Positions 1-36,603 of a stretch of DNA of 46,331 nt are shown here, piece by piece. Under the pieces are notes generated by a model, which saw only the letters and a program-made list of their open reading frames with translations, searched no databases and had not been told where the DNA came from. The stretch covers positions 1 to 46,331 of IMG/VR virus record IMGVR_UViG_3300042806_000041, one strand, 5' to 3'. The position numbers and the translations under genes were made by a program. Numbering within the stretch: the first letter of the stretch is position 1; every line of letters begins with the position of its first letter. This DNA is from a virus.

Positions 1-3000
1 CAGAACCAAATCAATGGGCTTGCAGGTGGAGTAACTTACGAGGGGACATGGAATGCGGCTACTAACGTACCATTCTTACAGAGCTCAGTAGGTGTACAGG
101 GCCATTACTACGTAGTAAATGTTGCAGGAACAACCAATCTTAATGGCATTACTGACTGGCAGCTAGGTGACTGGGCCATATTTAACGGAAGTGTTTGGGA
201 GAAGGTAGACAATACCGATGCTGTCGTTAGCGTTAACGGCTACACTGGTGCTGTTGTGCTTACCTTCAGTGATGTTGGAGCACCTCCAGCAACAAGAAAT
301 CTTACTATCAATGGGGTCCAGTTTGACTTAACTGCTGATAGAACATGGACTGTAGGCGATGTACGTACAGACCAGAGCTATGCTAACCCAACATGGATTA
401 CTTCACTTGCGTGGTCCAAGATTACAGGCACGCCTACCACATTAGCTGGTTACGGCATTACTGATGGAGTATCGAGCAGTAGGACATTAACTATCAACGG
501 TGTAACATACGACTTGACTGCTGATAGGAGTTGGAGCGTAGGCACTGTAACTAGTGTTGGTACCAGCGGTCCATTGACAGGTGGTACTATTACAGGCTCA
601 GGTACGATAGGAATCACACAGTCAGGGGCAAGCTCAGATGGATATTTGTCTAGCACTGACTGGAACACATTTAACAACAAGCAGAACGCATTAACCAATC
701 CTGTAACAGGTACTGGTACGATATTTACTTTACCCATGTGGAGTGGTGCTACATCATTAGTTGATAGCCCATTGTCCTATGGCCCTGATACATTTAACTT
801 TCAGTACAATAGCGCAACCGGGGGTACGGTAAACTTCACAAACATTGGATTGACTGCTTACACGTACTCAATTCAGATGAACAACTTCGGTTCTCCGAGG
901 TCAACTGTGCATAGCTACACCGATGGTGTAGTAGTTCAGTCTATAGCTGGCACTCAGGTGTCAAGACTATTTGCCAATGGTAATTTCATACTTGGCGATG
1001 GTGTAGTAGACAATGGGCACAAGCTTTCAGTAGAGGGCAACGTATACATTGAGACAATTGCAAATGCAGTAACAGATACTGATAAGTTCATTGTATCTGA
1101 CGGAGGAGTAATTAAGTACAGAACAGGGGCGGAAGTCCTTAGTGACATTGGAGCTCAGGGTTCTATTACTCTTACTACCACAGGGACAACTGGCCCTGCC
1201 ACGTTAATAGGGGATACACTTAATATTCCTAACTATACTACTGACCTTACTGGATATGTTCCTTACACAGGTGCTACTCAATCTGTTGATTTAGGGGCCT
1301 ACAATTTGTCTTCTAATAATTTAATTGCTAATGGTGGTGTTAATTCTGGAGCTTTACTTTTAAAACAATCCCTTAATTCTTCAGTAATTAATCTAGGATA
1401 CACTACAATAACTCCAAGTTCTGCTTATTTATTAAGATTTGGGTTTAGCACTAGTTTAGGTATATGGAAAGCTTTTCGTTTAAACGTATTTTCATTAACT
1501 GATAATACGGAGAGAGTTTACACCATGCCTAATGCAGATGGGACATTGGCATTGACTTCTGATATCCCTTCCCTAGCAGGGTATGTTACTCTAGCAACTG
1601 ACCAAACTATCACAGGCCTCAAGACCATTATGAGGGTTGGGGCTGCTATAGATGTGTTGAATTTTAAGATTGATACAAGTAATATTTATGCGCTAAAGGT
1701 AGCTTACAATCAAAATGAGTTGGCACCAAGTGGTGAGGCTACATGGAGTCTTGTCAATACATTTAATAACGGAAGTGGAACTGGACTTACAACTACCCCT
1801 ATATCATTCTTCAGAGGTGTGCTTGTTACAGGAGAGAGACTTTTAAGTGCATCTGTAAACTCAAACCTTCTAGACTACTACGGTAACAACCCAGCAGGCA
1901 GATATCCTATCTACGCATACAACACAGGCGTGCAGCAGTTCGCTTCAAGCATTATTGTTGGAGAGACTACAGGCGTGGTTAACGCAGTTACTGGAGCCAT
2001 TGCTGACCTACCAGCAGGTGTGGTTGCTAACTTCAAGGGACGTGTGATTGGTAGCAACGCTGTCAATAACAATGAGTTTGCTACACTTGGCCAAGTAACA
2101 TCAGGCAGTAGAGCAGCGATTAGTTTGACAACAACAGGCACTAGTGGTCCTGCTACGTATAGCAGCGTTACAGGCGTTCTTAATATTCCGCAATACCAAG
2201 CGGCTGGAACTTATGTAACCGCGGTTACTGCGTCAAGTCCTTTAGCATCCAGCGGAGGCACAACGCCAAATATTACAATCCAACAAGCTAGCGGTTCGCA
2301 AAGTGGATTCCTATCCAGTACCGATTGGACTACATTTAACAACAAGCAAAACGCGCTTACTAACCCAGTCACTGGAACAGGAACGACTAACTATTTGCCT
2401 AAGTTTACGGGCAGTACAACGATTGGAAATAGTCAGATATTTGACAATGGGAGCGGAGTTGGTATAAATACCGCAACCCCATATACTGCGACAAATTTTA
2501 CTTTTGTTACAACAAATAATACTAGCGGAAGTGGGTATGTTACAAGGGTAAATGGAACGTTATCTGCTTTAATTTATTCAAGTGCAAGCGCTACAATTAT
2601 TTCAGAGCAAAGGGCATTACCTTTAATATTTGAAACAAATGGCACGAGTCAACTAACTTTAAATTCTAGCGGCAACCTTGGGATTGGAAATACTCCAAGT
2701 GATGCATTTACAGGATATAGATTACAAGTAGGTTCAATTTCTGATTCTCAAACATTTATTTCAATTGGAAATAGCACAAGTGGATTAGGGCCTTTAAATG
2801 GTCTTGTAATTGGTAATGATTCAACAGGTGCAGATATTTACCAAAGAGAAAACTTACCTCTTAGATTTCACACAAGCAATGCCGTAAAAATGAATCTTAC
2901 GTCTAGTGGTAGACTACTTATTGGAAGTCCTCCTCCAACAGAATCAACTTTTCAGCTAGACGTTAACGGAACTGGGCGGTTTAGTGGGAATGGGTTTTTT

Positions 3001-4101
3001 GGCAATGCAACGGCATTTGCTGGACTTGCTGGAGGTATTTCTGTCAATGGTTCGACAAACTCAGGAATAAACTTTAGGATTGCAGATGTATTAAGAGGAT
3101 ACGTTTACGTTGCTGGGAATCTTGGAATGTATGTTGAAAGTACTGCTGGAAATGTAGTTTTAGCGCCTACTGGGGTATCTGTTTTAACTGCAACAACAAA
3201 CGGCAATGTTTGGATTGGTAACGACACAAACCCAATATTAGAAATAGCTAATGGAGGAAGTACAGATGTTTTAAGCGGGATTCGTTGGTCAGTTGGTGGC
3301 TCTAGAGTTGATTATGGAGGAATATATAGTGCAACCTCATCAGCGAATAATAATTATATTTCATTTTATACAAAAAACTCAGCATCTGCACCATCGGAAC
3401 GAATGCGCATTACCTCAGTCGGTAACGTTGGGATTGGGGTTGTCCCTAGTTCTTGGCAAACAGGAAGAATAGCTTTACAAATTGGAACATATACTTCCTT
3501 ACACGATGTTGCTGGATTTACTATTTTTGGTAATAATACATATAACCCATCGGTTAATAGGTATTTAAATAATGGTGCTGCATCTCAATATTATCAAGAA
3601 AGTGGAAGTCATATATTTGAAACTGCTCCATCAGGAACTGCTGGCAACGCTATAACATTTACGCCACAAATGAAAATTACAGTAGGCGGCAACGTGCTTA
3701 TTGGAACGACAACCGACGGAGGAGATAAATTTCAAGTTAGCGGTACTATATTTCAATCTAATTATACTTATCACGGAAATAATGCCGCTGGAAATTTAAA
3801 TGGTGCGGCTATAATAAACACCTCAATTACTTTAACCGCAACAAATTTAATTACCTATGAGGTTTATACTCTTGGAAACGAAAATGGAAGAAACCAAGCC
3901 GTTAGAGTTTATTTTGTTTATTACAACACCGCATTTGGTTGGAGTACTAGGTTAGTTTCGACAACTATTGAGACGCTTGGAAACGATTATGGTGTTGTAA
4001 CTCTTTTAGTTTCAGCTGGAGGAGTTTTACAAGTACAAGCTGGAAATTTAATAAGCACTGGCTCTTATAGAGTTGTAGTAATGAATCAATTTAAAAACTA
4101 A
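1..4101 (+). CDS. Tail fibre-like structural protein, 5' end cut by the window
   Basis: The frame is open from base 1 and ends at TAA 4099-4101, so at least 1366 residues are present and the true start lies outside; GTG 256 is only the first start-like codon. The protein is low in charge and rich in Gly, Thr, Ser and Asn. It carries repeated modules: LTINGV(Q/T)(F/Y)DLTADR twice near the start, SSTDWxTFNNKQNALTNP twice (codons near 650 and 2320), and LTTTGTxGPAT twice. Later segments have LDVNGTGRFSGN and ERMRITSVGNVGIG, motifs common in phage fibre and chaperone-capped tail proteins. No S74-type peptidase is seen at the C-terminus. The role inferred is host-surface recognition. The parts around 1260-1600 and 2450-4100 look more AT-rich than the first 1200 bases, which suggests mosaic exchange. 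The fibre class is well supported; the exact receptor role is not. Confidence 0.75.
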   Translation, partial: QNQINGLAGGVTYEGTWNAATNVPFLQSSVGVQGHYYVVNVAGTTNLNGITDWQLGDWAIFNGSVWEKVDNTDAVVSVNGYTGAVVLTFSDVGAPPATRNLTINGVQFDLTADRTWTVGDVRTDQSYANPTWITSLAWSKITGTPTTLAGYGITDGVSSSRTLTINGVTYDLTADRSWSVGTVTSVGTSGPLTGGTITGSGTIGITQSGASSDGYLSSTDWNTFNNKQNALTNPVTGTGTIFTLPMWSGATSLVDSPLSYGPDTFNFQYNSATGGTVNFTNIGLTAYTYSIQMNNFGSPRSTVHSYTDGVVVQSIAGTQVSRLFANGNFILGDGVVDNGHKLSVEGNVYIETIANAVTDTDKFIVSDGGVIKYRTGAEVLSDIGAQGSITLTTTGTTGPATLIGDTLNIPNYTTDLTGYVPYTGATQSVDLGAYNLSSNNLIANGGVNSGALLLKQSLNSSVINLGYTTITPSSAYLLRFGFSTSLGIWKAFRLNVFSLTDNTERVYTMPNADGTLALTSDIPSLAGYVTLATDQTITGLKTIMRVGAAIDVLNFKIDTSNIYALKVAYNQNELAPSGEATWSLVNTFNNGSGTGLTTTPISFFRGVLVTGERLLSASVNSNLLDYYGNNPAGRYPIYAYNTGVQQFASSIIVGETTGVVNAVTGAIADLPAGVVANFKGRVIGSNAVNNNEFATLGQVTSGSRAAISLTTTGTSGPATYSSVTGVLNIPQYQAAGTYVTAVTASSPLASSGGTTPNITIQQASGSQSGFLSSTDWTTFNNKQNALTNPVTGTGTTNYLPKFTGSTTIGNSQIFDNGSGVGINTATPYTATNFTFVTTNNTSGSGYVTRVNGTLSALIYSSASATIISEQRALPLIFETNGTSQLTLNSSGNLGIGNTPSDAFTGYRLQVGSISDSQTFISIGNSTSGLGPLNGLVIGNDSTGADIYQRENLPLRFHTSNAVKMNLTSSGRLLIGSPPPTESTFQLDVNGTGRFSGNGFFGNATAFAGLAGGISVNGSTNSGINFRIADVLRGYVYVAGNLGMYVESTAGNVVLAPTGVSVLTATTNGNVWIGNDTNPILEIANGGSTDVLSGIRWSVGGSRVDYGGIYSATSSANNNYISFYTKNSASAPSERMRITSVGNVGIGVVPSSWQTGRIALQIGTYTSLHDVAGFTIFGNNTYNPSVNRYLNNGAASQYYQESGSHIFETAPSGTAGNAITFTPQMKITVGGNVLIGTTTDGGDKFQVSGTIFQSNYTYHGNNAAGNLNGAAIINTSITLTATNLITYEVYTLGNENGRNQAVRVYFVYYNTAFGWSTRLVSTTIETLGNDYGVVTLLVSAGGVLQVQAGNLISTGSYRVVVMNQFKN

Positions 4102-4105
4102 TAAA

Positions 4106-4165
4106 ATGAAACAAATCGAACCAGTAACCATTTGGAAAAACGGCGAACAACTAGAGGCAAAATGA
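4106..4165 (+). pseudogene. Truncated 5' copy of the downstream 96-aa gene, interrupted by the homing endonuclease
   Basis: A 19-codon ORF starts at ATG 4106 and stops at TGA 4163-4165. It reads MKQIEPVTIWKNGEQLEAK, and the intact gene at 4764 begins MKTIEPIFIWVNGTQDEGT, so the two are homologous over their N-termini. The stop overlaps the endonuclease start as ATGA. This is best read as the 5' remnant of a gene copy into which, or next to which, the endonuclease gene was inserted. The nucleotide match to the intact copy is only partial, so this is not a recent simple duplication. It could still be translated as a short leader. Confidence 0.6.
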
Positions 4166-4752
4166 AAAAGCTAGGCATATATAAATTGAGCTGGGAAGAA
4201 TCTGGTTATTTTTATATAGGCCAGTCTATTGATATTCAGAATAGGTTTAATCGTCACAAGCACTTAATGATTAACAACAAGAATAAAAGTGGATTTATTC
4301 AAAGCGTTTACAACAAGTACGGAATGCCTTCATTTGAAATACTGGAAGAATGTTTATATGATGATTTAAATTCTAGAGAACAGCATTATTTGGATTTATA
4401 TTTTGATGATGATAAGTGTTGCAATCTTAATAAGAATGCAGTGAGCTCAAAAGGACATAAGTATTCTAAGGAGACCATTGAAAGAATGAAGATGTTAAGA
4501 GCTGGTAGTCAAAAAAAAGGAAAGGAAAATCCAAACTATGGAAGAAAAGCATCTATTGAATCAAGAAAGAAAATGTCTGAAGCTCAGAAGGGAGATAAAT
4601 CAAATAAGGCTAGACTAGTGCTAGATACTGAATCAGGAGTTTTTTATTATTGCTTAAAAGAACTTACTGACTTGTACAATTTGAATCACAGAAATATGTC
4701 TAGATATTTATCAGGAGTAAGAAAAAATAAAACTATCTATATTTACGCTTAA
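4162..4752 (+). CDS. GIY-YIG homing endonuclease with NUMOD3-like repeats
   Basis: The 196-aa product is a free-standing homing endonuclease. The catalytic domain shows GIY at residues 5-7, YIG at 18-20, the conserved Arg in RFNRH (28-32) and the catalytic Glu in REQHYLD (Glu73). It is followed by a DNA-binding tail: two NUMOD3-type segments (near KGHKYSKETIERMK and GRKASIESRKKMSEAQKG) and a C-terminal IENR1/NUMOD1-like segment with KELTDLYNLNHRNMSRYLSG. ATG 4162 is chosen because it overlaps the preceding stop as ATGA and begins just before the GIY motif; an in-frame ATG at 4132 would put 10 unrelated residues in front and run through the remnant gene in another frame. Such enzymes cut a recipient phage at a short site and spread by repair. 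The likely target is the tail gene behind it. Confidence 0.92.
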   Translation: MKKLGIYKLSWEESGYFYIGQSIDIQNRFNRHKHLMINNKNKSGFIQSVYNKYGMPSFEILEECLYDDLNSREQHYLDLYFDDDKCCNLNKNAVSSKGHKYSKETIERMKMLRAGSQKKGKENPNYGRKASIESRKKMSEAQKGDKSNKARLVLDTESGVFYYCLKELTDLYNLNHRNMSRYLSGVRKNKTIYIYA

Positions 4753-4763
4753 ACAAAATAACG

Positions 4764-5054
4764 ATGAAAACAATTGAACCAATTTTCATTTGGGTAAATG
4801 GAACCCAAGATGAAGGAACTATTCTAAATGCATATTGCATTAATGACAATCTAAGCACTTCAGGAACATTTTATTATTCTATCTTGAGTGATGCTCAACA
4901 GCAACTTGCTCAAGGGAATCTTACTATGACTGGAGAGGACTATCAAGCATGGCAGACAAATGAGTATGCCTATGACTGGGTAGCAGCACAGCTAAACCTA
5001 ACCATTACTGGTGACTATGCACCGCCATCTCCTGAACCTATAACTGCTGAATAA
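4764..5054 (+). CDS. Fibre-associated small protein, intact paralogue of the 4106 remnant
   Basis: The 96-aa product has no recognised catalytic motif. It begins MKTIEPIFIWVNG and contains LAQGNLTMTGEDYQAW and YDWVAAQLNLTITGDY, ending in a Pro-rich tail. Its place between tail-fibre genes suggests a fibre-tip, assembly or structural accessory role, but the function is unknown. The N-terminus is duplicated before the homing endonuclease, making this gene the presumed insertion target. It starts 11 bases after the endonuclease stop, and the next gene begins 2 bases after its own stop. Confidence 0.7.
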   Translation: MKTIEPIFIWVNGTQDEGTILNAYCINDNLSTSGTFYYSILSDAQQQLAQGNLTMTGEDYQAWQTNEYAYDWVAAQLNLTITGDYAPPSPEPITAE

Positions 5055-5056
5055 TC

Positions 5057-5293
5057 ATGGCAAAGATAAGCTCATACTCTACAGATGCTACAGTATCCTA
5101 CACCGATAAGTTAATCGGTACTGATGCTCAGGACAGCAACATCACTAAGAACTATACTATCGGAAGCATTCTATCAATGCCTCTACCAAGTGTGCCTGTA
5201 TACGCTAACAACGCAGCTGCACTAGCAGCAGGGCTTGTTGCTGGCAACGTGTACAGAATCACAGGGACAGACCAACTAGGGGTGGTGCATTAA
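5057..5293 (+). CDS. Small fibre/tail accessory protein
   Basis: The 78-aa product begins MAKISSYSTDATVSYTDKLI, similar in style to N-terminal attachment segments of phage fibres. It ends with VPVYANNAAALAAGLVAG followed by NVYRITGTDQLGVVH, a C-terminal pattern that I recall from structural proteins of other Bacteroidota phages; that recollection is unverified. It is probably virion-associated. It follows the previous gene by 2 bases and is likely translationally coupled to it. Confidence 0.65.
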   Translation: MAKISSYSTDATVSYTDKLIGTDAQDSNITKNYTIGSILSMPLPSVPVYANNAAALAAGLVAGNVYRITGTDQLGVVH

Positions 5294-5319
5294 GCATATC
5301 CCCACTAAAATCAAATCTA

Positions 5320-5547
5320 ATGGACATAAGAAAGATATCGGTAGGCCCAGATTACAAGGGCAGTGCAATGCATTACATCGTGGGTCAACGAATACTAGGT
5401 GACTCCAATGAAATACATTTGATTAAATTCGATGAGGCAAAGAACTCATTTAAAATATTTATCATCAACGATAAATTAGAGGTGGTGCTTTGGAAAGAAT
5501 TTAATTCTACAATACCGGTATCGGTCGAATACAATATTAATATCTAA
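5320..5547 (+). CDS. Hypothetical 75-aa protein
   Basis: The product is a short mixed alpha/beta protein beginning MDIRKISVGPDYKGSAMHYI with no signal peptide, membrane segment or recognised motif. The last base of its TAA stop is the first base of the next gene's ATG (TAATG), so it is translationally coupled to the GroES-like gene. The position between fibre genes and the packaging block gives no clear function. Confidence 0.65.
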   Translation: MDIRKISVGPDYKGSAMHYIVGQRILGDSNEIHLIKFDEAKNSFKIFIINDKLEVVLWKEFNSTIPVSVEYNINI

Positions 5548-21473: not shown

Positions 21474-23132
21474 ATGGCCACAAGCTCAACGTATTATTTA
21501 AACGCTCCATCACTAGGCTCCGCTACAGCTGTGTTCACAAACGCAGCTTTAACGGTATGTGCTCCAAATGGATTCTACTCAGATGGTATCATATCAAGGG
21601 AGTTAGTTGACTGCGTACTTCTGCCTCAGCAAACCTGTCCTTCTTGTTCTATCCCTTGTGGGGAAACTATATCTGCAGATGGTGTTCAAGGTATCTATTA
21701 CCTTAACACGGACTTAGGCTCGGCTATAGGCGCTGTTGTTATTAGATTTAATCCTCTGAACATACCAGATGGCATTAAGGCGGTTTACAATACCGTTGTA
21801 TACAATGGTGTGTCTTCACCTGTATACGGCTGGCTTCAGGGTACAGCAGGGCTACCTACTTATATTGGATTAGCTTCTGCTGATTGTGGTATAGTAGCAG
21901 GCTCTCCATATACTTTGGATGAATTCCAGTACGATGGGACAGATTTTGCCGCTCTAGGTACAGATACATCTGTAAGTATATTGGCAGGACAAATGGACTT
22001 GACAGCGTTGGCACCGGGAAATACATTGATGGTAATCCCAAAAATAGCAGCAAGCCCATCTATATTGAACCTTACTTTTATTGGACCATGCTCTGGAACA
22101 GAGTTCAGTATTTCAGTAGCTTGTCCAGCTTCGTTGCCATCATTTGATTCAAGCACAGTGAATGCTAATAGTGAATTGGCTTGCGCTGATGCTATAGACC
22201 AAACGTATTATGTAGCTCATGTGAATGGGGCTGGTGGTGTTCTTGGCTTATACGATTTGGTATTTAGTGATGCCAATGGGCAATCAAAGTTATCAGCAGG
22301 GTTTTATAAGACCAGTGATGCAGGGGCTAATGAATGGTATCAGGTAGATGCAAATGGAGCGATTGTTTTGTTTGGTACTTGTCTGGTTCCAATCCCATGT
22401 GGTGGCTCAATAACTGGTAGTGGAGGTCAAGGTGTGTACTATATTGAGACAAATGTAAGCACAAACACTGGAGCGATAATTGTTAAATTTAATCCTCAAG
22501 GAGTTCCTGATGGTATATTAGCCACGTATAATAGCGTGAACTATAATGGGTTGTCATCACCTTCATTTGGATGGCGTCAAGGCACTGCAGGATTACATAC
22601 TTTTGTTGGTGAAACAGCTCTTGATTGTAATATAGTGGCGAACTCTCCTTATTCTAATGTTGATGAGTTTGAGTATAATGGAACTACTTTTGCTTCATTA
22701 GGAACAGAAACATCTGTAACTGTATTGTCTGGGCAAATGCAAACTAATGCATCAGCTCCGGGCCTATGCGTAATGGTAATACCAAAGCCTACAGCTAGTC
22801 CATCCATAATGAATCTTAGTCTTATTGGAATTTGTTCAACAACTGAATTCAATATAGAAATTCTATGTGCAGCTCCTTTAACATCATTTGCATCTAGTCT
22901 TAATAATTTTGACAGCTCAACTGCTTGTGTTAACGCTATTGACCAGACATTCTATGTGGCTCATGTAAATGGTGCCGCTGGAGTACTTGGTTTATATGAC
23001 CTAGTATTCAGTGATGTTAATGGTCAGTTTAAACTAAGCACGGGCTACTACAAGACAACAGCTGCGGGTGCTAACAATTGGTATCGAGTGGATTCTAATG
23101 GAGTGATTATTCAATTTGGAACTTGTCCTTAA
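21474..23132 (+). CDS. Two-repeat, Cys-rich tail/fibre protein
   Basis: The 552-aa product has a ~59-residue head, then two tandem homologous repeats of ~246 residues (60-305 and 307-552). Matching pairs include GxxYYxxTxxxxxxGA with FNPxxxPDGI; GWxQGTAGL; DEFxYxGTxFAxLGT; and AIDQTxYVAHVNGA followed by GVLGLYDLVFSD. Each repeat starts with IPCG and holds conserved Cys residues. A beta-rich repeat protein next to the nozzle gene is likely a tail appendage or adhesin. It is 13 bases behind the nozzle gene. No enzymatic motif is seen. Confidence 0.7.
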   Translation: MATSSTYYLNAPSLGSATAVFTNAALTVCAPNGFYSDGIISRELVDCVLLPQQTCPSCSIPCGETISADGVQGIYYLNTDLGSAIGAVVIRFNPLNIPDGIKAVYNTVVYNGVSSPVYGWLQGTAGLPTYIGLASADCGIVAGSPYTLDEFQYDGTDFAALGTDTSVSILAGQMDLTALAPGNTLMVIPKIAASPSILNLTFIGPCSGTEFSISVACPASLPSFDSSTVNANSELACADAIDQTYYVAHVNGAGGVLGLYDLVFSDANGQSKLSAGFYKTSDAGANEWYQVDANGAIVLFGTCLVPIPCGGSITGSGGQGVYYIETNVSTNTGAIIVKFNPQGVPDGILATYNSVNYNGLSSPSFGWRQGTAGLHTFVGETALDCNIVANSPYSNVDEFEYNGTTFASLGTETSVTVLSGQMQTNASAPGLCVMVIPKPTASPSIMNLSLIGICSTTEFNIEILCAAPLTSFASSLNNFDSSTACVNAIDQTFYVAHVNGAAGVLGLYDLVFSDVNGQFKLSTGYYKTTAAGANNWYRVDSNGVIIQFGTCP

Positions 23133-27120: not shown

Positions 27121-30100
27121 ATGAACGAACAGGCTATTATAGACTCGTACAACCTAGCGGTACAGAATGGATACAAGAAATCAGTTGATGAATTTAAGAC
27201 ATTGCTTTCTACCAATTCAAATGCTTTAAATGATATTTATAATTTATCCGTACAAAATGGATACAAAAAATCAATAGAAGATTATAAAGTATTGATGGGT
27301 GTATCCCCTATAAAAGCCTCAGGTCAGGAGCCTGAAATGCCAGCAGAGTTAAAAAAAAAAGAAGATACTACGGCATTACCTTCGGGACTTGGTTCTTCGG
27401 TTTCGTCCGTATCAGCTGAAGCAACTCCTGAAATGGCTAAGTTCGGGTATCAGCCCGGGAAGCCTTTGCCTCAACAAATACCATCTGTTCAACCTGAACA
27501 GCCTACAAAACCAAAGTATACTGAAGAGGTAATGTTTGGCCCAATGGGCATCTCTGGTGTTAAGACTACGGGTAGAGCCCCTGAATTTATAGGTAAGAGT
27601 ATCCCTAAGGTAGTTGGAGAAATAGGTAAAGTTCTAACTAAAGGAGCTGTCAAGTTTCCAGCTGGAGTTTTAGAGACTGCCGCAATAGCTACAGCTGCCG
27701 CACGAAACCTAGCTGCAAAGACTGGCATAGTTGATGAGACTTCTGCGCTTGATATATCCATTCCAATCGGACCAGCTAATGTTAATTTTTACCAAGCTGC
27801 AGGTGAATGGAAAAATTTAGTAAATGATTTTGTCCCAACAGATAAAGATATTGAGTCTGGATTTTGGGGACAAACTGCCAATGCTTTAGGTGAAATGATT
27901 CCTATACTACTTACTGGAGCAATCTCAGGAGGAGCTAGGGCTATTGCTAAGGAGGCTGGTAAAAAAGGCCTTTCAATGCAGGGTGTTGCTAACTATGGTA
28001 AAAACGTAGTGTCTCGAATAGGAACTCCTCAGGGAGTTTTAACTATTTCACAGGTAGCTGCACCATCATACGAACAAGCAAAACTAGAAGGGGCCACAGA
28101 GAATGAGGCACTTGGATATGCAATTCAAAATGCAGTGATGACTTTCCCTCTGGAGATGTTGCCAGTAAATAATTTATTCAAGAGATTGGATAATGCTTTA
28201 GTTGGTAATAAAGGAGTTGAAGTATTAAAGAGAGCAGTGATTGGTGGCGGTGAAGAATTTATCACTGAAGGTGTTCAAGCTGTTTATGAGAACATAACAG
28301 CAGATGCTATATATGGCTCCACCAGAAGCTTTTTAGATGGTGTAGGAGAGGCTTCCGCTGTAGGAGGTACAGTAGGCGCCATAATGAACGGTGTGCTTAC
28401 AGCGTTGCTAGGAAGAAGAGCTAGAGCTACATCTAATAAGGAGATTGAGGAGATTGATAAATCAATTAAAGATGTAGAGCAGAAGATAGCTCAGGTTGAT
28501 TCTAATAATGAATCTTTAAGAGAGACTGTAAAAGTTCTTGAGGAGACTAAGCCTAGAGTACTTTCCTATGGTAGCGCTAACTATAACTTTATTGAATCCC
28601 CTAAGGGTGATTTAGAATATGCTGATGATGCACTCACTGAGCAGCAAGCTCAGGGTATCATTGGTAACCTTGCAAATTCATACAAGAAGATTGATTTTCA
28701 AATAGAAGAAGTAGAGCCTGATGACCCATATCAGCCTACTACTTATAAAATTATTGGTAAACCTAAAACTATAAAACAAGATGCCATTCAAGAGCAAGCA
28801 GCAGGTCAAGTACCTGTTCAGTCAGGAACCGGAGTTAGCCAAGAAGTGGCGCAAGGAGAACCCCAAGCAGAACCTCAAGTCACTGCCGAAGCGGGTGCCC
28901 AAGAAGAAGTAAATCCAATAGATAAAGATAAGGGACTTGATAATCCTGATTTTGTGTCTTATGATGGAATGTTCTCAAAAGAGAAGGCATCTTCAACAAG
29001 TCAAACAGATATTCTTGCAGACGAAATTGGGGGGGCACGGGGGTATCAATTTTTTTATAAAGGTAAAAAGTCAAGGATAGAGATGATGAGTCCTGATGAA
29101 TACCTAAAGAGAGTTAGAGAAGGATTTAAAACAAATAAAGATGAAGGTATATTAGACTTATCTAAGGCCAAGATTAATGAAGGTATAGAAAAAGGAGATA
29201 AAATAGATATGCCGTCTTTAAGCTATTCAGAAGGCGGAAGGTTTAATCAAGAGGGAAGGAATAGAGCTACTGTTGCTAAAGAAAGAGGCGAAAAACTAAT
29301 CCCTGTTTTAATAGAGGAAGATGCTTCCATTGATGATAGAATAAATAAAGCAAAAGAATTATTATCAAGAGTTAAGACTAAAGAGAATACTATTGAAAGT
29401 TTAATAGATGAAGCTCAAAATAAGTTTAACTTACATAGGGATGTAGTTGCATTTATGCAGCGGAATATTGATGAAATTAATCCTGCTGTATCTCCAGCTG
29501 TGTCTCCTGTTCCTACTAAAGAAGAAGTAACACCATTACAAACAACTAAACAAGATACAAATGAAGCTATACCGACTGAGCGGGTACAGCCCGAACTACG
29601 GACTGTTCAACCCAAGACCAAAGCCACAACTAAGCCAGCAGAACCTAAAGGACCTGCACGAGTCTCTTCAAAAAGAGAACAAGTCAAAAGCTCCATCCAA
29701 AGAATCGCAAATGCAGGACTCCTCCGCTCCGCAGAAACAGGGAAGCAAACAATAACCGAGCAGGAGATTGATGCCCAGATGGCATTGACAGACGCTATGG
29801 CTAGAGTTTGGCAAGAGACATCAGGCAAGGATAACTTTTACGAAACCTTTTTTGAAGACGTAAAGGAGGGAGATATTGATGCCATCAGACAAAAGGGTGG
29901 TGCTCTATTCCAAAGCACTGAGCTGCCTCAGCTTCCTGTTACCAGAGTTACTTTAGCTGTGTTTGAGCTTCCTGAGTTTCAGAAGATGAAAGGCAATATG
30001 GTAGCTCCTCAAGCTGTGAGCGACCTAATGAAGTCTCGTGGCAAGCAAATTGAAAAGGACATTATAAATACTGTCCTCTCCTACGACAAGTACCAAGGCC

Positions 30101-33100
30101 AGAAGAGAATATCTTTTGATGACTTCAAGGATGATGTTGAGACTCAGCTAATGAAGCTCGAGCGTATTGATACAAACACATACGCTTCTTATGGTATGGA
30201 TAATCTTGGTGATGAGCAAAACTATGGGACAGCTCAGACCATTATATTCAATAGCCCTATTGACCATGGTCAGTTTGGTCACTTCCGTGGTGACTTTAAC
30301 AATAGAGCTATTCAAATTACTACTTGGAATATTCGTCAGGTACCAAACACTGAGCAGTATGTAGCGATTGATGCTAATATGCCGGCCGGTGTTGAGCAAA
30401 ATGAAATGGCTCAGTACGTGGGCACAGCAGGACCTCTTGCTGATGTACAGAGATGGGTCAATGATAGAAATTCTGTTTCTGAAAGAAATATAAATGTAGG
30501 ATTGTTCGGACACATTCGTAATTGGTTTAATAGAAATACTGGGGTATACACCTTAGCAGAACTACAAAGCGACTACTTCCAAAAGAATAAGGCCAATGAT
30601 TTGTACGCATCAAAAATCCCTCAAGAGGAGATAGATGAATACATGAATAAAAACTTTAGAAGCAAGCTTGATAAAGAAACACGTGAGCTTTTTAAGAAGG
30701 AGTTTAACATTGAGACAAAGTTTGTACTTGATGAGAATGGTAATAAAAAAGCTGTTGGTTCATTTGACTCAGAAGGAGAATTACTTGTATTAGAGCGTAT
30801 TGATGGATACACTACCCCTCCTATTGGATACGATGTTATTGAGAACGCAGAGAACAAAATAGTTATTGAGGCTGCTAGACTATTGGCTAGACAGGCTATT
30901 CCTTACAGTGATGTTGCTACAAGATATAGCGAACTTCGAGATGAGTATGAAGTAAAGCGAAAGGAACTAAAGAAAGAAGAGTACAAATACATAGCAAAAA
31001 GAATAGATGAAGTTAAAAAGTCAGAGGCTGGCAACTTAATGCTTAGTCAGTTCGTGGCCTCACAGAAGGTTCACGAGCTAAGGCTATTCAGAGAGTCTCT
31101 TAAACACGCTGCAGATAAAGGAGCTACTGAACTTTGGTTCCCTACACCATATACTATTGCTGTAATTGAAGGATACGTAAGTGACAAAGGCACTCCTCCT
31201 TACGAAATTATTCGTGGTGATGATAACTATCTTGAGCCCGGAGACTTGATTGATTACGGTGGAACTCGAATGATTGTTGTAGAATCAGGTGGTGACTACA
31301 TAACTGTTGCTGCTAGAGATTCTGTTTCAATATACGATATTGATGACCTAAGAAGAGATGAGGTCGATAACCGTATGAATGAATTAGAATACGATTTAGA
31401 GCGTCAAGTAAGTGATATAAATGCAATAACAAGACAAGAAGCTGAAGAGTATGAATATGAAGCAGACGAGTATATGTCTGATACTATTAAAGATGAATTA
31501 AACTCATACTTTGAAAATAACCCTGAAGAGGAGACTGTTTCTTGGAATAAAATAATAAAGTTCGATGTAAGAGATAGGGTAGAAAAAGATTACGACTACA
31601 TGACCCCCCAAGACTTGGCATCTTGGGCAGAGGAGATTTATGAAGATGGTGATACTATCTACACGATTGACGAAAGAAGGGCTACAGAAAATCTTGGTCA
31701 GCCTTCAGAATATGAGAGCAATGTAAATGAAGATGATTTTGAGGACCAGCTTAGTGAGACCCAATCTACTATAGTCAGCAAGTACGGAGAGCTTGGTGAG
31801 ATGATTCGCAAGATGCGACCTGATGCTGAGGTAGTAAGAGATAACAATGGTAAGGCTTGGATTAAAACAGAAATCACAGCAGCTGATGCAAGCAATCCAA
31901 TCATTGCTTTCCAAGAAGAGGGCGGCAAGATAAAAGGAGCTATTGATTTCTCTAACGATAACAAGGCTTCGGTCTACGTTTTTGATGGTGCTGATATCTC
32001 TACACTTACTCATGAAATGAGTGGCCACCTTGGCCGTAGGGTTCTTGAGAAGTTAGCTGAGACTAATGCTGATTTCGCAAAAGACTATGAGACTGCTAAA
32101 AAGTGGGCTGGAGTTGAGAACAATCAATGGACCCGTGGTGCTGAGGAGAAGTGGGCCAGAGGTTTTGAGAAATATTTAAGGTCAGGTAAAGCACCAAGCA
32201 ATGCGTTGAAAAACGTATTTGAAAAACTGAAGGATTGGCTTACTAATATTTACAAAACCATTAAGGGCAGCAGCATAGACATTAAGCTTACGCCTAGCAT
32301 TACTTCTGTATTTGATAACCTCTTAGCCACTAAACAAGAGCAAGGCAAGGAGGTAGATGTACTAGAGGATGCTTTTGATTTCCTTGACAAAATAGATAAA
32401 GGCATTTCAAAAACATTAAAGACAAGAGCTAACGATGCGTTGCTTGGCATTCCTCTAACTGCTATTCAAGGGATGGTTAAAGGCCTGAAGGCATTGGTTC
32501 AGGGTGGCATGAAACTACGTGATGCCATTAAAAATATAGCTGCAGAAAACAACATCTCTCAGGAGAAGCTTAGAGACATCCTTGATATTGCTAGTATCCA
32601 AGAGGATTTCAATACCTTAATGGATAAGGCTGATAAGTTGATAGCAACTCAGAAATCAAAAGAGATTCCTGAAAAGAAGATTGTATCCAACTTGGATAAA
32701 ATGGTCCGAGATTTCTATAAGGATTTGGATGTCAATGATGCCCAGCGCAAAATCATGGAGCGTGAAGCACGTGCTAGAATGGGTGTTGAACCACGTAAAG
32801 CTGCATCAATTGGCCGTGTTATCGGTGTACTCAAGGACATTACCAACGTAACTAGAGAAGAGAAGCTAAAGATTATCTCAAGGATACGTGAGCTAGGAAG
32901 AGACGTGACTAAGGACTTGGCTAGTGAGATTAGAGAGTTGGCAGCATCTGGAAAGATTACTGCCACTCAAGCTGCTAGTATTGTTGCTAGAACACTAAAA
33001 ATAAATCCATTGAATGAAGCCTCTGTATCCAACTTTGTTGATTACATGGCAAAGGTATTCTCTAAGGCTGATTACGTTGGAAAGATGGGTACTGCTTTAA

Positions 33101-36100
33101 GTCAAATTAAGCAGGCCAAGAAAAACATTAAGACCAAGATTGGTATTTCTCAAGACCTATTTGAGCCATTAAATCAATTGCTATCAATCAACCCAACACT
33201 TATTCCTTTGAATCAATTGGAGAAGTACTTGGGTATCTTAGAAGACTTCAGCGCAAGAAAGGTTGTCCTTAGTATCCCCGACAGAGTCAAGGCATTGAAA
33301 CAAGTCAATGAAATACTTGAAGAGGTAAGCAATGAGTTTTCTTTGGTTGACGAACTTGCGGATAGGTTTAACAACTACGAGGGCAAAGTATTTAACGAAG
33401 ATGGCAACCTTAGCTATGCTTCAACTATCAAGGACATGATAGACGGTGGTATAATTACTACTGATGAAGCAGACTTGATGAAGAAGTACAAGTCTGAGAT
33501 ACTTCCTCAGGTAGAGCCTACGCCTGCTACTGATGCGGAAATTGAAGCAGATAAAAAGAAAGAAATAAAAACATTAAAGGAGCTAAAGATTGATAACAAG
33601 GAGTTCCCGTTGCCTAGCCGTGATGAGAAAGAGGATGCATTAAATCTAGCAAAGCTTATCAAAGAACTGAGCGTTGAGGACCTGATGAACCTTCCTTTGA
33701 CTGACCTTAAAAATATAATAAAGGTTATAGGTAACATCAACAATGGATACCTTCCTCATTATGCCAAGGTATCTATAGAGAAACTTGAGGCTATCAAGCA
33801 AGGCAAGGTTCTTTCTGGTGCCATAGAAAAAGCTAAGCCTTTGTCTTTCTCAAAACTATACTCAAGATTAAAAGATAAGTTTACAAAGAAGGGAGCTATA
33901 GATGAGTTGATAAGAGCGAACCCATTGTACTACATAGACAACGTATTCGGTGACTTTAAAACAAGAGACATCTTTAACTCACTTCTTGAGAACTCTGCTC
34001 AGGCTTTGTCTAACTTTAACTCTGAGCTAAAAAGAGTATCTCAAAAAATAGATGCAGCTCAAAATAAGGTATTGGCATCGTTCAGACAGAACCCTGACAA
34101 GTATCTGATGTCTAAATTTAGAATGACAGCATATATGCTTCAGCGTGAGTACGAGTCAAACGTAGGCAAGAAGGGTGTTAAGCCTGTCGCTGATTATCTC
34201 AAGGCTACTATTAAACATATTAGAAAAGGCAAGTCAGTCTTTAAAGAAGCTGATGCTGAGAAGCTGGAGAAGATACTTAAAGAGGTTGAAAGCTACACCA
34301 TAGATGAGTTCTATAATACATTCAACAGCGCAGAGAAGAACGCCATTAAAGTGATGACTGAAATCAATGCATCTCTAGGAGAGAAGGCGGCCTACACTGC
34401 GTCTGTGATACGTGGTAATAAGGTTGAGTTGATGGACAATTATTTTCACCACAATGTTTTGCATGAGCAGAACCCTATGGATGCTACGGCTGCACCTGAG
34501 TTCTCCAATAGCTATAGCAACTCAATGCGTCCGACTACAAAGGCTAAGTCTTTGATTGAGCGAACAGGTGCTTTGACTCCACTGAACTTTGACTTGTTTA
34601 CATCTACTCAAAAGGGAGCCAAGTTTGTGTTGTTGGATTACAATATGACCTCTCCTATTCGTACCGCTAGAAGAACCTTGATTCAGGCAGAGAAGAACCT
34701 AGAGAGTAAGGGCTTAATGGATAAGGAGAAGACTCAAATATTCAATGCCATAAACAATGCATACGAGGAAGCTCTTGAGAATATATTGACAAACAACATT
34801 GTTCAGGATGACCTTTCAAATGAAGTGTTTGACTTTATTCAGAAACAAGGATACAGAGCTGCCTTAGCTGGCACTACTAGGTTCCAAGCTGAATTAGCTT
34901 CTAACATTGTAAACGCATTGCTTGTAAATCCTAAGGCTTTTGGGACAGGTATTATGAATGCAAAGCTTATTGCTTCAGCTAATGGGTATGAATTCATGAA
35001 GAATGCAAAGTCAAAACAAACGTCTAGGCTTTATGCTTCTGATGCTCTATCAGGTAAATTGGTTGACCCTCAAATACTGAAGCAAACATCAGGTATCAAG
35101 GGTAGCGTTTCTAGAGGTGCCTTACGAAACAGAACAACTCAGATTTATAATCTTACTCTAAAAAAGTTAGTTCAGAACCCTGTTGAATACATCGCAGATA
35201 CCATGCTGACCACTCCAGATAAGGTGGTTTCTATGCCACTTTGGTTTGGTAGCTTCATGAATGAGTTCAAAAGAATAACAGGGGAAGAAGTTAATCAGGA
35301 GATGATGATTAACAATGACCTTGATTATATGCAGAAGAATGCAGATGCAATTGAGCAGGCTACAAGAAAGGCTGACCAAGACTCTGTATACTCAGGAGCT
35401 GCTAACAACGAGTTCATGGGAGTTCTCAAGGGTAAACTAAAGCCTAATCAAGGGTTGACTCAGAAGATTTGGAACAACTTCAACTCTTTCATGACCAACT
35501 TCATGAACTTTGATTATGCTGCGGCAAGAAGTGCAGTCTATAATTTGTTCAACGAAGGGTACATGACTAAGCAAAAGGCTGCTGCCGTACTGGCCGGCAT
35601 CACAACAAGGTCTGTAATCTATCAGGTTATGGTGGCTAATATGGGGGCTGGTATTGTTGGAGCCGCACTTGGTCTTGCGTTCGATTGGGAAGATGAAGAA
35701 GAAGTGGATGAGAAGTCATACTACCAAATGATTGGCAGAGGATTGGCTAACGTGTTTGCTGGATATACCGTTGGCAGAAACTTTGGCAACGCAGTAAGAG
35801 GAATGATAAACTTTGGTGTAGAAAAAATCAACGAAGAGTATCTTGACTTCCTTAGAAATGGAGAGTATGATTTCTACAAGGACAACATTGCATACACTTA
35901 TCTAAATGTTGGTGACAGAGGAGATATAGATGTTCCAAAAATAGCTATTAATATGGCAGGTGCATATACCCCTGCATTGAACACAGCTGTATTGATAGGT
36001 AAAAACTTTGGAGCATTATCTAGCAGAGTAATGGGTGAGGGTCCAACCAAAAAAGAACCTGATGCTATAAGAAGAGAGGACATGACTGTAAATTACAGAA

Positions 36101-36603
36101 TACCTTTAGAAGTTGCCGGCAACGCAGGATTAATTCCTTTTTACAAGGATGTTAAGAGGGCTGTGAACGATGAGATTTATAAGGACCTACGTAAGGCTGC
36201 TAATACTCCTGACTCAAGCATCACGACCCCTGATGATTATGATAAGCTGAAGGACTTGAAAGAGCTAAAGAACAAGACTAGGAATCAGGAAGAGCGCAGG
36301 GCTATAGACAAAAAGATTGTTGAGATTGTAGGCAGCGAAGAGGCTAAGGCTGCAATTGATAAGCAGAAGGAGATGTTGGCTGCAAAGAAGAAAAGACTAC
36401 TTTATGATTCAAGCAAGGGACAGAGATACGATAATGAGAGTGACATGAAGCGATTGAATCCTTCCCTTTGGAGAAAAAGATTCGGGCCTAACTCGGATTG
36501 GAATAAAGAAACCAAGGCAAAGGAAGCTGTTGAAAGTAAATTACAAAAGGAAGCTACGGCTAGAGAAGACAAGGAATTTAAGAAAAAGAATAGGGGTAAC
36601 TAA
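27121..36603 (+). CDS. Giant (3160-aa) polyvalent internal virion protein
   Basis: This is one fifth of the window in one gene. Two ~33-residue repeats open it (residues ~5-36 and 38-69, sharing VQNGYKKS). Then come a hydrophobic Ala/Gly region (~180-430), a Pro/Gln-rich linker (~560-610), a ParB-like stretch (~655-740, with RFNQEGRNRATVA), and a region with AELQSDYFQ (~1145), a motif of phage large polyvalent proteins. A zincin-like segment follows (THEMSGH at 1630-1636; AEEKWARGFEKYL near 1674), then ~1000 residues of helix. A C-terminal hydrophobic segment (ANMGAGIVGAALGLAF) stands before a Lys-rich tail. It is probably ejected with DNA to protect or help the genome. No RNA polymerase DxDxD or GR-type motif was found. 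Domain calls are by eye. Confidence 0.75.
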   Translation: MNEQAIIDSYNLAVQNGYKKSVDEFKTLLSTNSNALNDIYNLSVQNGYKKSIEDYKVLMGVSPIKASGQEPEMPAELKKKEDTTALPSGLGSSVSSVSAEATPEMAKFGYQPGKPLPQQIPSVQPEQPTKPKYTEEVMFGPMGISGVKTTGRAPEFIGKSIPKVVGEIGKVLTKGAVKFPAGVLETAAIATAAARNLAAKTGIVDETSALDISIPIGPANVNFYQAAGEWKNLVNDFVPTDKDIESGFWGQTANALGEMIPILLTGAISGGARAIAKEAGKKGLSMQGVANYGKNVVSRIGTPQGVLTISQVAAPSYEQAKLEGATENEALGYAIQNAVMTFPLEMLPVNNLFKRLDNALVGNKGVEVLKRAVIGGGEEFITEGVQAVYENITADAIYGSTRSFLDGVGEASAVGGTVGAIMNGVLTALLGRRARATSNKEIEEIDKSIKDVEQKIAQVDSNNESLRETVKVLEETKPRVLSYGSANYNFIESPKGDLEYADDALTEQQAQGIIGNLANSYKKIDFQIEEVEPDDPYQPTTYKIIGKPKTIKQDAIQEQAAGQVPVQSGTGVSQEVAQGEPQAEPQVTAEAGAQEEVNPIDKDKGLDNPDFVSYDGMFSKEKASSTSQTDILADEIGGARGYQFFYKGKKSRIEMMSPDEYLKRVREGFKTNKDEGILDLSKAKINEGIEKGDKIDMPSLSYSEGGRFNQEGRNRATVAKERGEKLIPVLIEEDASIDDRINKAKELLSRVKTKENTIESLIDEAQNKFNLHRDVVAFMQRNIDEINPAVSPAVSPVPTKEEVTPLQTTKQDTNEAIPTERVQPELRTVQPKTKATTKPAEPKGPARVSSKREQVKSSIQRIANAGLLRSAETGKQTITEQEIDAQMALTDAMARVWQETSGKDNFYETFFEDVKEGDIDAIRQKGGALFQSTELPQLPVTRVTLAVFELPEFQKMKGNMVAPQAVSDLMKSRGKQIEKDIINTVLSYDKYQGQKRISFDDFKDDVETQLMKLERIDTNTYASYGMDNLGDEQNYGTAQTIIFNSPIDHGQFGHFRGDFNNRAIQITTWNIRQVPNTEQYVAIDANMPAGVEQNEMAQYVGTAGPLADVQRWVNDRNSVSERNINVGLFGHIRNWFNRNTGVYTLAELQSDYFQKNKANDLYASKIPQEEIDEYMNKNFRSKLDKETRELFKKEFNIETKFVLDENGNKKAVGSFDSEGELLVLERIDGYTTPPIGYDVIENAENKIVIEAARLLARQAIPYSDVATRYSELRDEYEVKRKELKKEEYKYIAKRIDEVKKSEAGNLMLSQFVASQKVHELRLFRESLKHAADKGATELWFPTPYTIAVIEGYVSDKGTPPYEIIRGDDNYLEPGDLIDYGGTRMIVVESGGDYITVAARDSVSIYDIDDLRRDEVDNRMNELEYDLERQVSDINAITRQEAEEYEYEADEYMSDTIKDELNSYFENNPEEETVSWNKIIKFDVRDRVEKDYDYMTPQDLASWAEEIYEDGDTIYTIDERRATENLGQPSEYESNVNEDDFEDQLSETQSTIVSKYGELGEMIRKMRPDAEVVRDNNGKAWIKTEITAADASNPIIAFQEEGGKIKGAIDFSNDNKASVYVFDGADISTLTHEMSGHLGRRVLEKLAETNADFAKDYETAKKWAGVENNQWTRGAEEKWARGFEKYLRSGKAPSNALKNVFEKLKDWLTNIYKTIKGSSIDIKLTPSITSVFDNLLATKQEQGKEVDVLEDAFDFLDKIDKGISKTLKTRANDALLGIPLTAIQGMVKGLKALVQGGMKLRDAIKNIAAENNISQEKLRDILDIASIQEDFNTLMDKADKLIATQKSKEIPEKKIVSNLDKMVRDFYKDLDVNDAQRKIMEREARARMGVEPRKAASIGRVIGVLKDITNVTREEKLKIISRIRELGRDVTKDLASEIRELAASGKITATQAASIVARTLKINPLNEASVSNFVDYMAKVFSKADYVGKMGTALSQIKQAKKNIKTKIGISQDLFEPLNQLLSINPTLIPLNQLEKYLGILEDFSARKVVLSIPDRVKALKQVNEILEEVSNEFSLVDELADRFNNYEGKVFNEDGNLSYASTIKDMIDGGIITTDEADLMKKYKSEILPQVEPTPATDAEIEADKKKEIKTLKELKIDNKEFPLPSRDEKEDALNLAKLIKELSVEDLMNLPLTDLKNIIKVIGNINNGYLPHYAKVSIEKLEAIKQGKVLSGAIEKAKPLSFSKLYSRLKDKFTKKGAIDELIRANPLYYIDNVFGDFKTRDIFNSLLENSAQALSNFNSELKRVSQKIDAAQNKVLASFRQNPDKYLMSKFRMTAYMLQREYESNVGKKGVKPVADYLKATIKHIRKGKSVFKEADAEKLEKILKEVESYTIDEFYNTFNSAEKNAIKVMTEINASLGEKAAYTASVIRGNKVELMDNYFHHNVLHEQNPMDATAAPEFSNSYSNSMRPTTKAKSLIERTGALTPLNFDLFTSTQKGAKFVLLDYNMTSPIRTARRTLIQAEKNLESKGLMDKEKTQIFNAINNAYEEALENILTNNIVQDDLSNEVFDFIQKQGYRAALAGTTRFQAELASNIVNALLVNPKAFGTGIMNAKLIASANGYEFMKNAKSKQTSRLYASDALSGKLVDPQILKQTSGIKGSVSRGALRNRTTQIYNLTLKKLVQNPVEYIADTMLTTPDKVVSMPLWFGSFMNEFKRITGEEVNQEMMINNDLDYMQKNADAIEQATRKADQDSVYSGAANNEFMGVLKGKLKPNQGLTQKIWNNFNSFMTNFMNFDYAAARSAVYNLFNEGYMTKQKAAAVLAGITTRSVIYQVMVANMGAGIVGAALGLAFDWEDEEEVDEKSYYQMIGRGLANVFAGYTVGRNFGNAVRGMINFGVEKINEEYLDFLRNGEYDFYKDNIAYTYLNVGDRGDIDVPKIAINMAGAYTPALNTAVLIGKNFGALSSRVMGEGPTKKEPDAIRREDMTVNYRIPLEVAGNAGLIPFYKDVKRAVNDEIYKDLRKAANTPDSSITTPDDYDKLKDLKELKNKTRNQEERRAIDKKIVEIVGSEEAKAAIDKQKEMLAAKKKRLLYDSSKGQRYDNESDMKRLNPSLWRKRFGPNSDWNKETKAKEAVESKLQKEATAREDKEFKKKNRGN

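Follow-up and report, generated by a model that had tools for sequence, protein, structure and literature searches.

A homing endonuclease gene (HEG) is harmful to its carrier if it disrupts a useful gene, and the usual ways round this difficulty are introns, inteins, and intergenic sites. The locus analyzed here belongs to an IMG/VR virus record of 46,331 bases (hereafter, the window) and raises the question of how an HEG came to follow directly on a 19-codon ORF that resembles the start of the gene located behind the HEG, a gene that is itself complete (Table 1). The large terminase of the virus shows 79% identity to that of an uncultured podovirus from Manatee Spring and 45% identity to those of Flavobacterium elemo phages; because Sphingobacteriales and Chitinophaga metagenome bins also contain relatives of the 96-aa gene, the host is probably a member of the Bacteroidota. 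The virus was recorded twice in IMG/VR, the second copy (L001) being 99.99% identical over 13 kb, so that an assembly error is unlikely. Outside the locus, positions 27121-36603 form one ORF of 3160 aa, very long given the phage size, which is probably a virion-associated polyprotein-like gene, and a 78-aa protein encoded at 5057-5293 has a start (MAKISSY...) similar to those of the large fibre genes of relatives.

Table 1. Layout of the HEG locus (positions in the window)
Feature	Position	Strand	Remarks
Upstream tail-fibre-like gene	256..4101	+	Start possibly further upstream; assigned by repeat content and position
Putative 5' remnant of the recipient's original gene	4106..4161	+	18 codons plus 2 nt; the ORF reaches TGA at 4163-4165
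ATGA overlap of remnant stop and HEG start	4162..4165	+	Endonuclease ATG at 4162-4164
Free-standing GIY-YIG/NUMOD3 homing endonuclease gene	4162..4752	+	196 aa
A-rich spacer, leader of the putatively restored gene	4753..4763	+	11 nt, apparently carried with the HEG
Putative foreign replacement 5' end	4764..4819	+	IWVNGTQDEG type, HEG-linked
Site homologous to the insertion junction in the intact gene	4819..4820	+	After the second base of codon 19; located by aligning intact alleles with remnant ends
Remainder of the 96-aa gene	4820..5054	+	Donor/recipient switch in relatives at about codon 18, 66-73, or 80

The ORF at 4106-4165 translates as MKQIEPVTIWKNGEQLEAK, 19 codons followed by TGA, and the intact gene at 4764-5054 (96 aa) begins with MKTIEPIFIWVNGTQDEGT. 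An 18-residue alignment of the two contains 11 identities and yields a BLOSUM62 score of 56, which was reached by none of 100,000 shuffles, the best score among the 763 other ATG-started stretches of the window being 20. The similarity is far beyond chance, and the homology proposed in the first-pass annotation of this DNA, along with the overlap of the short ORF's stop with the endonuclease start, is borne out. The same annotation spoke of a fibre-accessory gene: the gene does adjoin a tail-fibre-like gene (for which no family match was found in Pfam or PHROG), and the word "accessory" reflects position only. The 96-aa protein itself has no match in Pfam or PHROG, with one family member weakly matching phrog_6034; its AlphaFold model is confident (pLDDT 94) and finds no PDB match at E <= 0.001, only uncharacterised viral ones.

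The intervening gene is the GIY-YIG endonuclease it had been taken for, with matches above the curated cut-offs to Pfam GIY-YIG (PF01541; 27.6 bits, cut-off 22.6) and to the DNA-binding region NUMOD3 (PF07460; 31.7 bits, cut-off 20.4); it also matches the homing endonucleases of PHROG 314. Its dN/dS of 0.06-0.27 indicates purifying selection and, given the conserved reading frame and the invariance of the GIY-YIG catalytic residues G5 I6 Y7, Y18 I19 G20, R28, and E73 across 12 relatives, the enzyme is likely to be active. A search of positions 3600-5400 yielded no Rfam match at E up to 0.5, and hence, no known intron around the HEG. An intron-borne HEG was rejected on this ground and because the gene has its own start and stop codons; it is free-standing, that is, located outside any known self-splicing intron or intein.

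The origin of the short ORF becomes clearer from the relatives. We scanned IMG/VR for the 96-aa gene (80 loci), for loci of the endonuclease family, and for the gene start (120 loci); the loci, designated by L numbers, are metagenomic contigs, some of them duplicates (L001 is the window's own virus), donors and recipients among them are proxies, and, the contigs being related, counts of loci are not counts of independent events. Among 162 distinct starts of the gene family, six are shorter than 40 codons, and all six stand directly before an HEG of this type: MKQIEPVTIWKNGEQLEA in the window, MKTIEAVSIWDNGQTVEA in L014, MKTIEAVSIWDNGTVQEA in L016 and, with other codons, in L045, MKKIEAVSIWDNGTVQQA in L018, and MKTIEPVVFPLNLGT in L050. 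The first five (window, L014, L016, L045, and L018) stop at one and the same nucleotide, the second base of codon 19, with the HEG ATG following at once; because codon 19 of intact genes is variable (T, K, V, I, or S), the last codon of the remnant varies as well. In L050, where the HEG is 49% identical, the remnant ends within a few bp of this junction. The L016 contig (40,048 bases) carries a second GIY-YIG gene on the minus strand (21602-21829), about 7 kb from the first.

The truncated starts have close counterparts in phages that lack the HEG. The L014 remnant is identical at 55 of 56 nt to intact genes of the HEG-less L190, L201, and L224, that of L045 at 53/56 to L208/L233, and those of L016 and L018 at 52/56 to L200. 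For the window, the closest intact HEG-less allele (L294) matches at 49/56 nt and no near-isogenic empty relative was found among the relatives recovered, so that its own recipient is reconstructed by analogy. Judging by these matches, the remnants resemble the intact genes of HEG-less phages and not the gene behind the HEG, the start of which always differs from the remnant where one is present. The first-pass annotation had named, as evidence against its interpretation, the same 19-codon ORF occurring as an independent short gene in related HEG-less phages. None of the HEG-less phages among the 120 matches to the gene-start pattern carries it: the short forms are only HEG-linked truncations and a frameshifted ORF of 54 aa (L214), all other HEG-less ORFs of the remnant allele type being intact genes of 86-135 aa, and the independent short gene was rejected.

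The nearest HEG-less counterpart is a different fragment of the gene start, 15 codons long (MKVIQSVNIWQNGEL), which is joined to the coiled-coil end of a fibre gene directly 5' of an intact gene in L053 (4808-4885), L054 (7922-7999), and L056 (3799-3876). In L074 (8001-9880) and L080 (8001-10150), two intact paralogues of the 96-aa family lie 1.5-1.8 kb apart. Both arrangements show that the region also rearranges without an HEG.

Taken together, the shared junction and the allelic relationships of the remnants suggest that, very probably, the HEG invaded the 5' end of the small fibre-adjacent gene and brought with it a substitute for the part that it severed; since the donor's gene start would have arrived together with the HEG, the host gene would have been restored whole. 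The most direct support comes from pairs of relatives in which the presence or absence of the HEG is polymorphic in a way that points to horizontal spread, namely, L014 against the empty L201 and L050 against the empty L069, the latter a contig of 24.5 kb without any GIY-YIG gene. Alignment with the HEG-less members (L201 and L190 for L014; L069 for L050) reveals a single uninterrupted gene. L014, compared with L201, L190, and L013, consists of codons 1-18 of the recipient, the HEG, codons 1-80 of the donor, and then recipient sequence again: before codon 80, 86 informative sites are of donor and 5 of recipient type, whereas after it, 2 are of donor and 150 of recipient type (150/154), and the next 350 nt are 94-100% identical to L201. 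L015 has nearly the same pattern, and L016 and L018 change over to recipient sequence near codon 66-73. To the left of the HEG of L050, 325 nt are 97.5% identical to L069 as far as codon 15; the gene behind the HEG opens with foreign sequence (codons 1-17), after which, between about codons 18 and 80, it is L069-like again (86-96%). Conversion tracts are thus visible at L014, L015, L016, L018, and L050, and the mosaics of L014 and L050 are the traces expected of double-strand-break repair from a donor with a different gene start.

The entry of the endonuclease at the gene start by co-conversion from a related phage, one of two histories considered in the first-pass annotation, hence gains support from both pairs. 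The annotation's "heterologous 5' fragment" needs to be turned around: a foreign 5' end exists, but it is the downstream start that appears foreign, whereas the fragment at 4106 would be the old start of the recipient. The other history, in which the HEG inserted into the first of two tandem gene copies and left the second intact, would predict for the window an HEG-less relative with the adjacent intact copies MKQIEPVTIWKNG... and MKTIEPIFIWVNG..., and the paralogues of the L074/L080 lineage show that two full copies can exist in one phage. However, both the remnant and the C-terminal end of L014 match a single gene, that of L201, with donor sequence in between, L050 gives the same mosaic relative to L069, and no HEG-less phage was found with two intact copies in direct succession. 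The mosaic tracts lead us to reject tandem-copy insertion for L014 and L050, and overall we give it hardly any credence.

Under the co-conversion explanation, the HEG and the gene start behind it should travel together, and the sequences are consistent with this. Beyond the unit formed by the HEG and the gene start, the flanks of HEG-positive loci are mostly unrelated, the 11-nt spacer being nearly identical across most loci whose flanks otherwise have nothing in common. Behind HEGs of the window's clade (at least 82% DNA identity), the gene always starts with the IWVNGTQ(D)(E/K)G type. This type of start was found in 20 IMG/VR contigs, 14 of them with and 6 without the HEG; for contigs with sufficient upstream sequence, the association with the HEG (10/4 versus 2/117) gives a Fisher p = 1.8e-10, which is optimistic because the contigs are related. 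Of the HEG-less exceptions, L011 bears a scar that consists of the last bases of the HEG 3' end, and the remaining ones could be natural resistant alleles. Just 3' of the junction, the HEG-positive allele and many of the empty alleles share the sequence ILNAYCIND, but they differ just 5' of the junction, in codons 11-18; it is for this reason that the WVNGTQDEG start seems likely to protect the carrier.

The linkage of start and HEG also bears on the possibility that the fibre/accessory region simply recombines at gene starts, the remnant being a fusion scar and the HEG a passenger. Fusions such as that of L053/L054/L056 and the other fusion scars that precede the HEG in L013 and L015 speak for such shuffling. 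Yet, the WVNGTQ start and the HEG are statistically associated, and every 19-codon truncation directly adjoins an HEG start, with five alleles sharing a single nucleotide position, whereas junctions produced by random shuffling should be scattered; we regard this scenario as very improbable. The relatives indicate that invasion by the HEG happened repeatedly at the same site. That five alleles share this junction is most readily accounted for by a single original insertion, with the remnant and the gene body subsequently serving as homology arms, although the ends may also have been joined repeatedly at the cut itself. I-TevI prefers a CNNNG-type cleavage motif; a motif of this type common to the target alleles was considered and dropped, being present in only some of them.

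The remnant is not obligatory: L002, L004-L006, L079, L117, and L118 carry the HEG without the codon-19 remnant. L013 and L015 retain no more than the final 7-14 nt of the remnant, joined to the start of a fibre gene, and L079 has no remnant at all; together with the scar in L011, these states appear to represent later decay of the layout.

The ATGA overlap is retained in eight distinct contexts, namely, the five codon-19 remnants, L050, L015, and L004-L006, the last of which use the stop of the fibre gene as the upstream stop. The preservation of the overlap in all these contexts, that of the fibre stop included, suggests translational coupling of remnant and HEG. One could go further and propose that the 19-codon ORF is selected as a leader peptide or coupled micro-ORF that drives HEG translation, its similarity to the gene being a by-product. 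The varied contexts of the overlap and the region around the HEG, where neither a terminator nor an excess of promoters was found, fit this proposal, but HEG-positive loci without the 19-codon ORF exist (L002, L079, and L117) and the sequence of the remnant is that of an ordinary allele of the gene start. As an account of the locus, we consider it unlikely; as an additional role of the remnant, it is compatible with HEG invasion, and the two can coexist.

The invasion scenario that we favor can be laid out as follows. In a co-infecting phage, the HEG would target IWDNG/IWKNG...EA-type alleles and cut them near codon 19; repair of the break would copy the HEG together with the donor's gene start, which, being of the WVNGTQDEG type and different upstream of the site, would escape cleavage. 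The sequence itself shows a recipient gene broken off after the second base of codon 19, with 4106-4161 as its stump; the HEG begins directly at this junction and is followed, after the 11-nt leader, by a different allele of the gene start in frame with a complete gene. In relatives, the foreign part that begins with the HEG gives way to recipient sequence at about codon 18, 66-73, or 80, in the manner of a conversion tract of variable length. In later transfers, the remnant might serve as the left homology arm, and through the ATGA overlap, it might supply a translation start to the promoterless HEG.

The closest precedent is found in fungal mitochondria, in the HEGs with replacement 3' ends known as mobile ORFs (mORFs), which have been described in atp6 of Allomyces macrogynus and in atp6, atp9, cox2, and nad3 of Glomus sp. 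(PMC3630166). There, as here, a free-standing HEG lies in a gene, a foreign gene piece replaces the severed part, and the native piece that it displaced survives as a remnant, with one GIY-YIG case included (PMC3630166). The phage case is the mirror image: the foreign piece of the fungal elements is the 3' end of an organellar gene, with the remnant downstream (PMC3630166), whereas here, the foreign piece is a 5' end that brings a start codon and a leader of its own, and the remnant precedes the HEG. The phage locus shares with the mORFs the carriage of a foreign gene end with the HEG and the native end left as a remnant, but what it carries is the 5' part of a phage gene, not the 3' end of a mitochondrial one; it appears to work like an mORF without being a member of that class. 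In introns of Tremella fuciformis mitochondria, too, a mobile element carries a piece homologous to part of the host gene, with gene fragments exchanged by gain or loss, but there, the "N-terminal duplication" piece resembles the following exon, and the elements are intron-like and fungal (PMC7315562).

Among phages, the free-standing endonucleases of T4 have been described as lacking promoters and showing ORF overlaps (PMC2988022). The seg and mob HEGs of T-even phages resemble the present case in that a promoterless GIY-YIG HEG stands beside a gene thought to be cut, with flanking co-conversion, a presumably resistant HEG-linked allele, and an overlap with the upstream ORF (PMC2988022). However, the T4 HEGs mostly lie between intact genes and cut far away (PMC2988022), whereas here, the HEG is inside a reading frame and a truncated native start persists as a scar. 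mobE in Aeh1 nrdA and mobA in T4 gene 60 are likewise free-standing HEGs inside a phage coding sequence, but both pieces of these split genes must cooperate (PMC2988022), whereas here, the gene would be regenerated whole by the duplicated foreign start. Isolates with related HEGs have, by their annotation, split genes or intergenic HEGs, and the combination of remnant and replacement start was not found in them. In the papers searched, with subscription journals partly covered, we found no earlier account of a replacement 5' end accompanying a phage endonuclease. Bringing along a fresh gene start would represent another way for an HEG to avoid harming its carrier.

The layout recurs beyond the fibre-adjacent gene. 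We compared short upstream ORFs with the downstream sequence at 72 distinct GIY-YIG loci outside this family. L172 (3782-5303) contains a 46-codon GH19 endolysin start, a GIY-YIG HEG unrelated to the window's HEG family, and then a complete endolysin (PF00182); the upstream/downstream score is 128, against a best of 111 (probably between homologous loci) and a next best of 49 in shuffled pairings, and the intact endolysin of Flavobacterium phage immuto is 73% identical to the remnant over 45 codons. This is solid evidence at the sequence level for the same layout in an unrelated gene. L133 (3870-5409) is a probable case in a YqaJ recombinase gene: a 43-codon fragment, with an ATGA overlap, is similar to the gene behind the GIY-YIG HEG, a similarity reached in 0 of 5000 shuffles, with a score (49) equal to the second-best null score.

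Tentatively, and with somewhat less than even confidence, we propose a general mode of phage HEG spread, whereby the endonuclease invades a conserved 5' part of a gene, brings a resistant replacement start, and leaves a scar at the insertion site, which is perhaps also the site of cleavage; this mode would comprise fibre-adjacent genes (with HEGs down to 49% identical), the GH19 gene, and probably the YqaJ gene. Such scars would reveal the insertion site of each enzyme from sequence and could help to find the cleavage sites of uncharacterised endonucleases, as well as to track recent gene conversion among phages in the wild. A selfish gene of this kind could sweep alleles of fibre-adjacent, endolysin, and recombinase genes through phage populations.

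Two other arrangements deserve mention. In L123 (3947-4998), an 11-codon ORF before a GIY-YIG HEG is similar to the start of the following gene, a candidate that was set aside, the 11-codon remnant being too short to count. In another phage, L391 (MW202613.1:28936-32526), an HEG immediately precedes a YqaJ-type exonuclease gene, and the two overlap by a short stretch.
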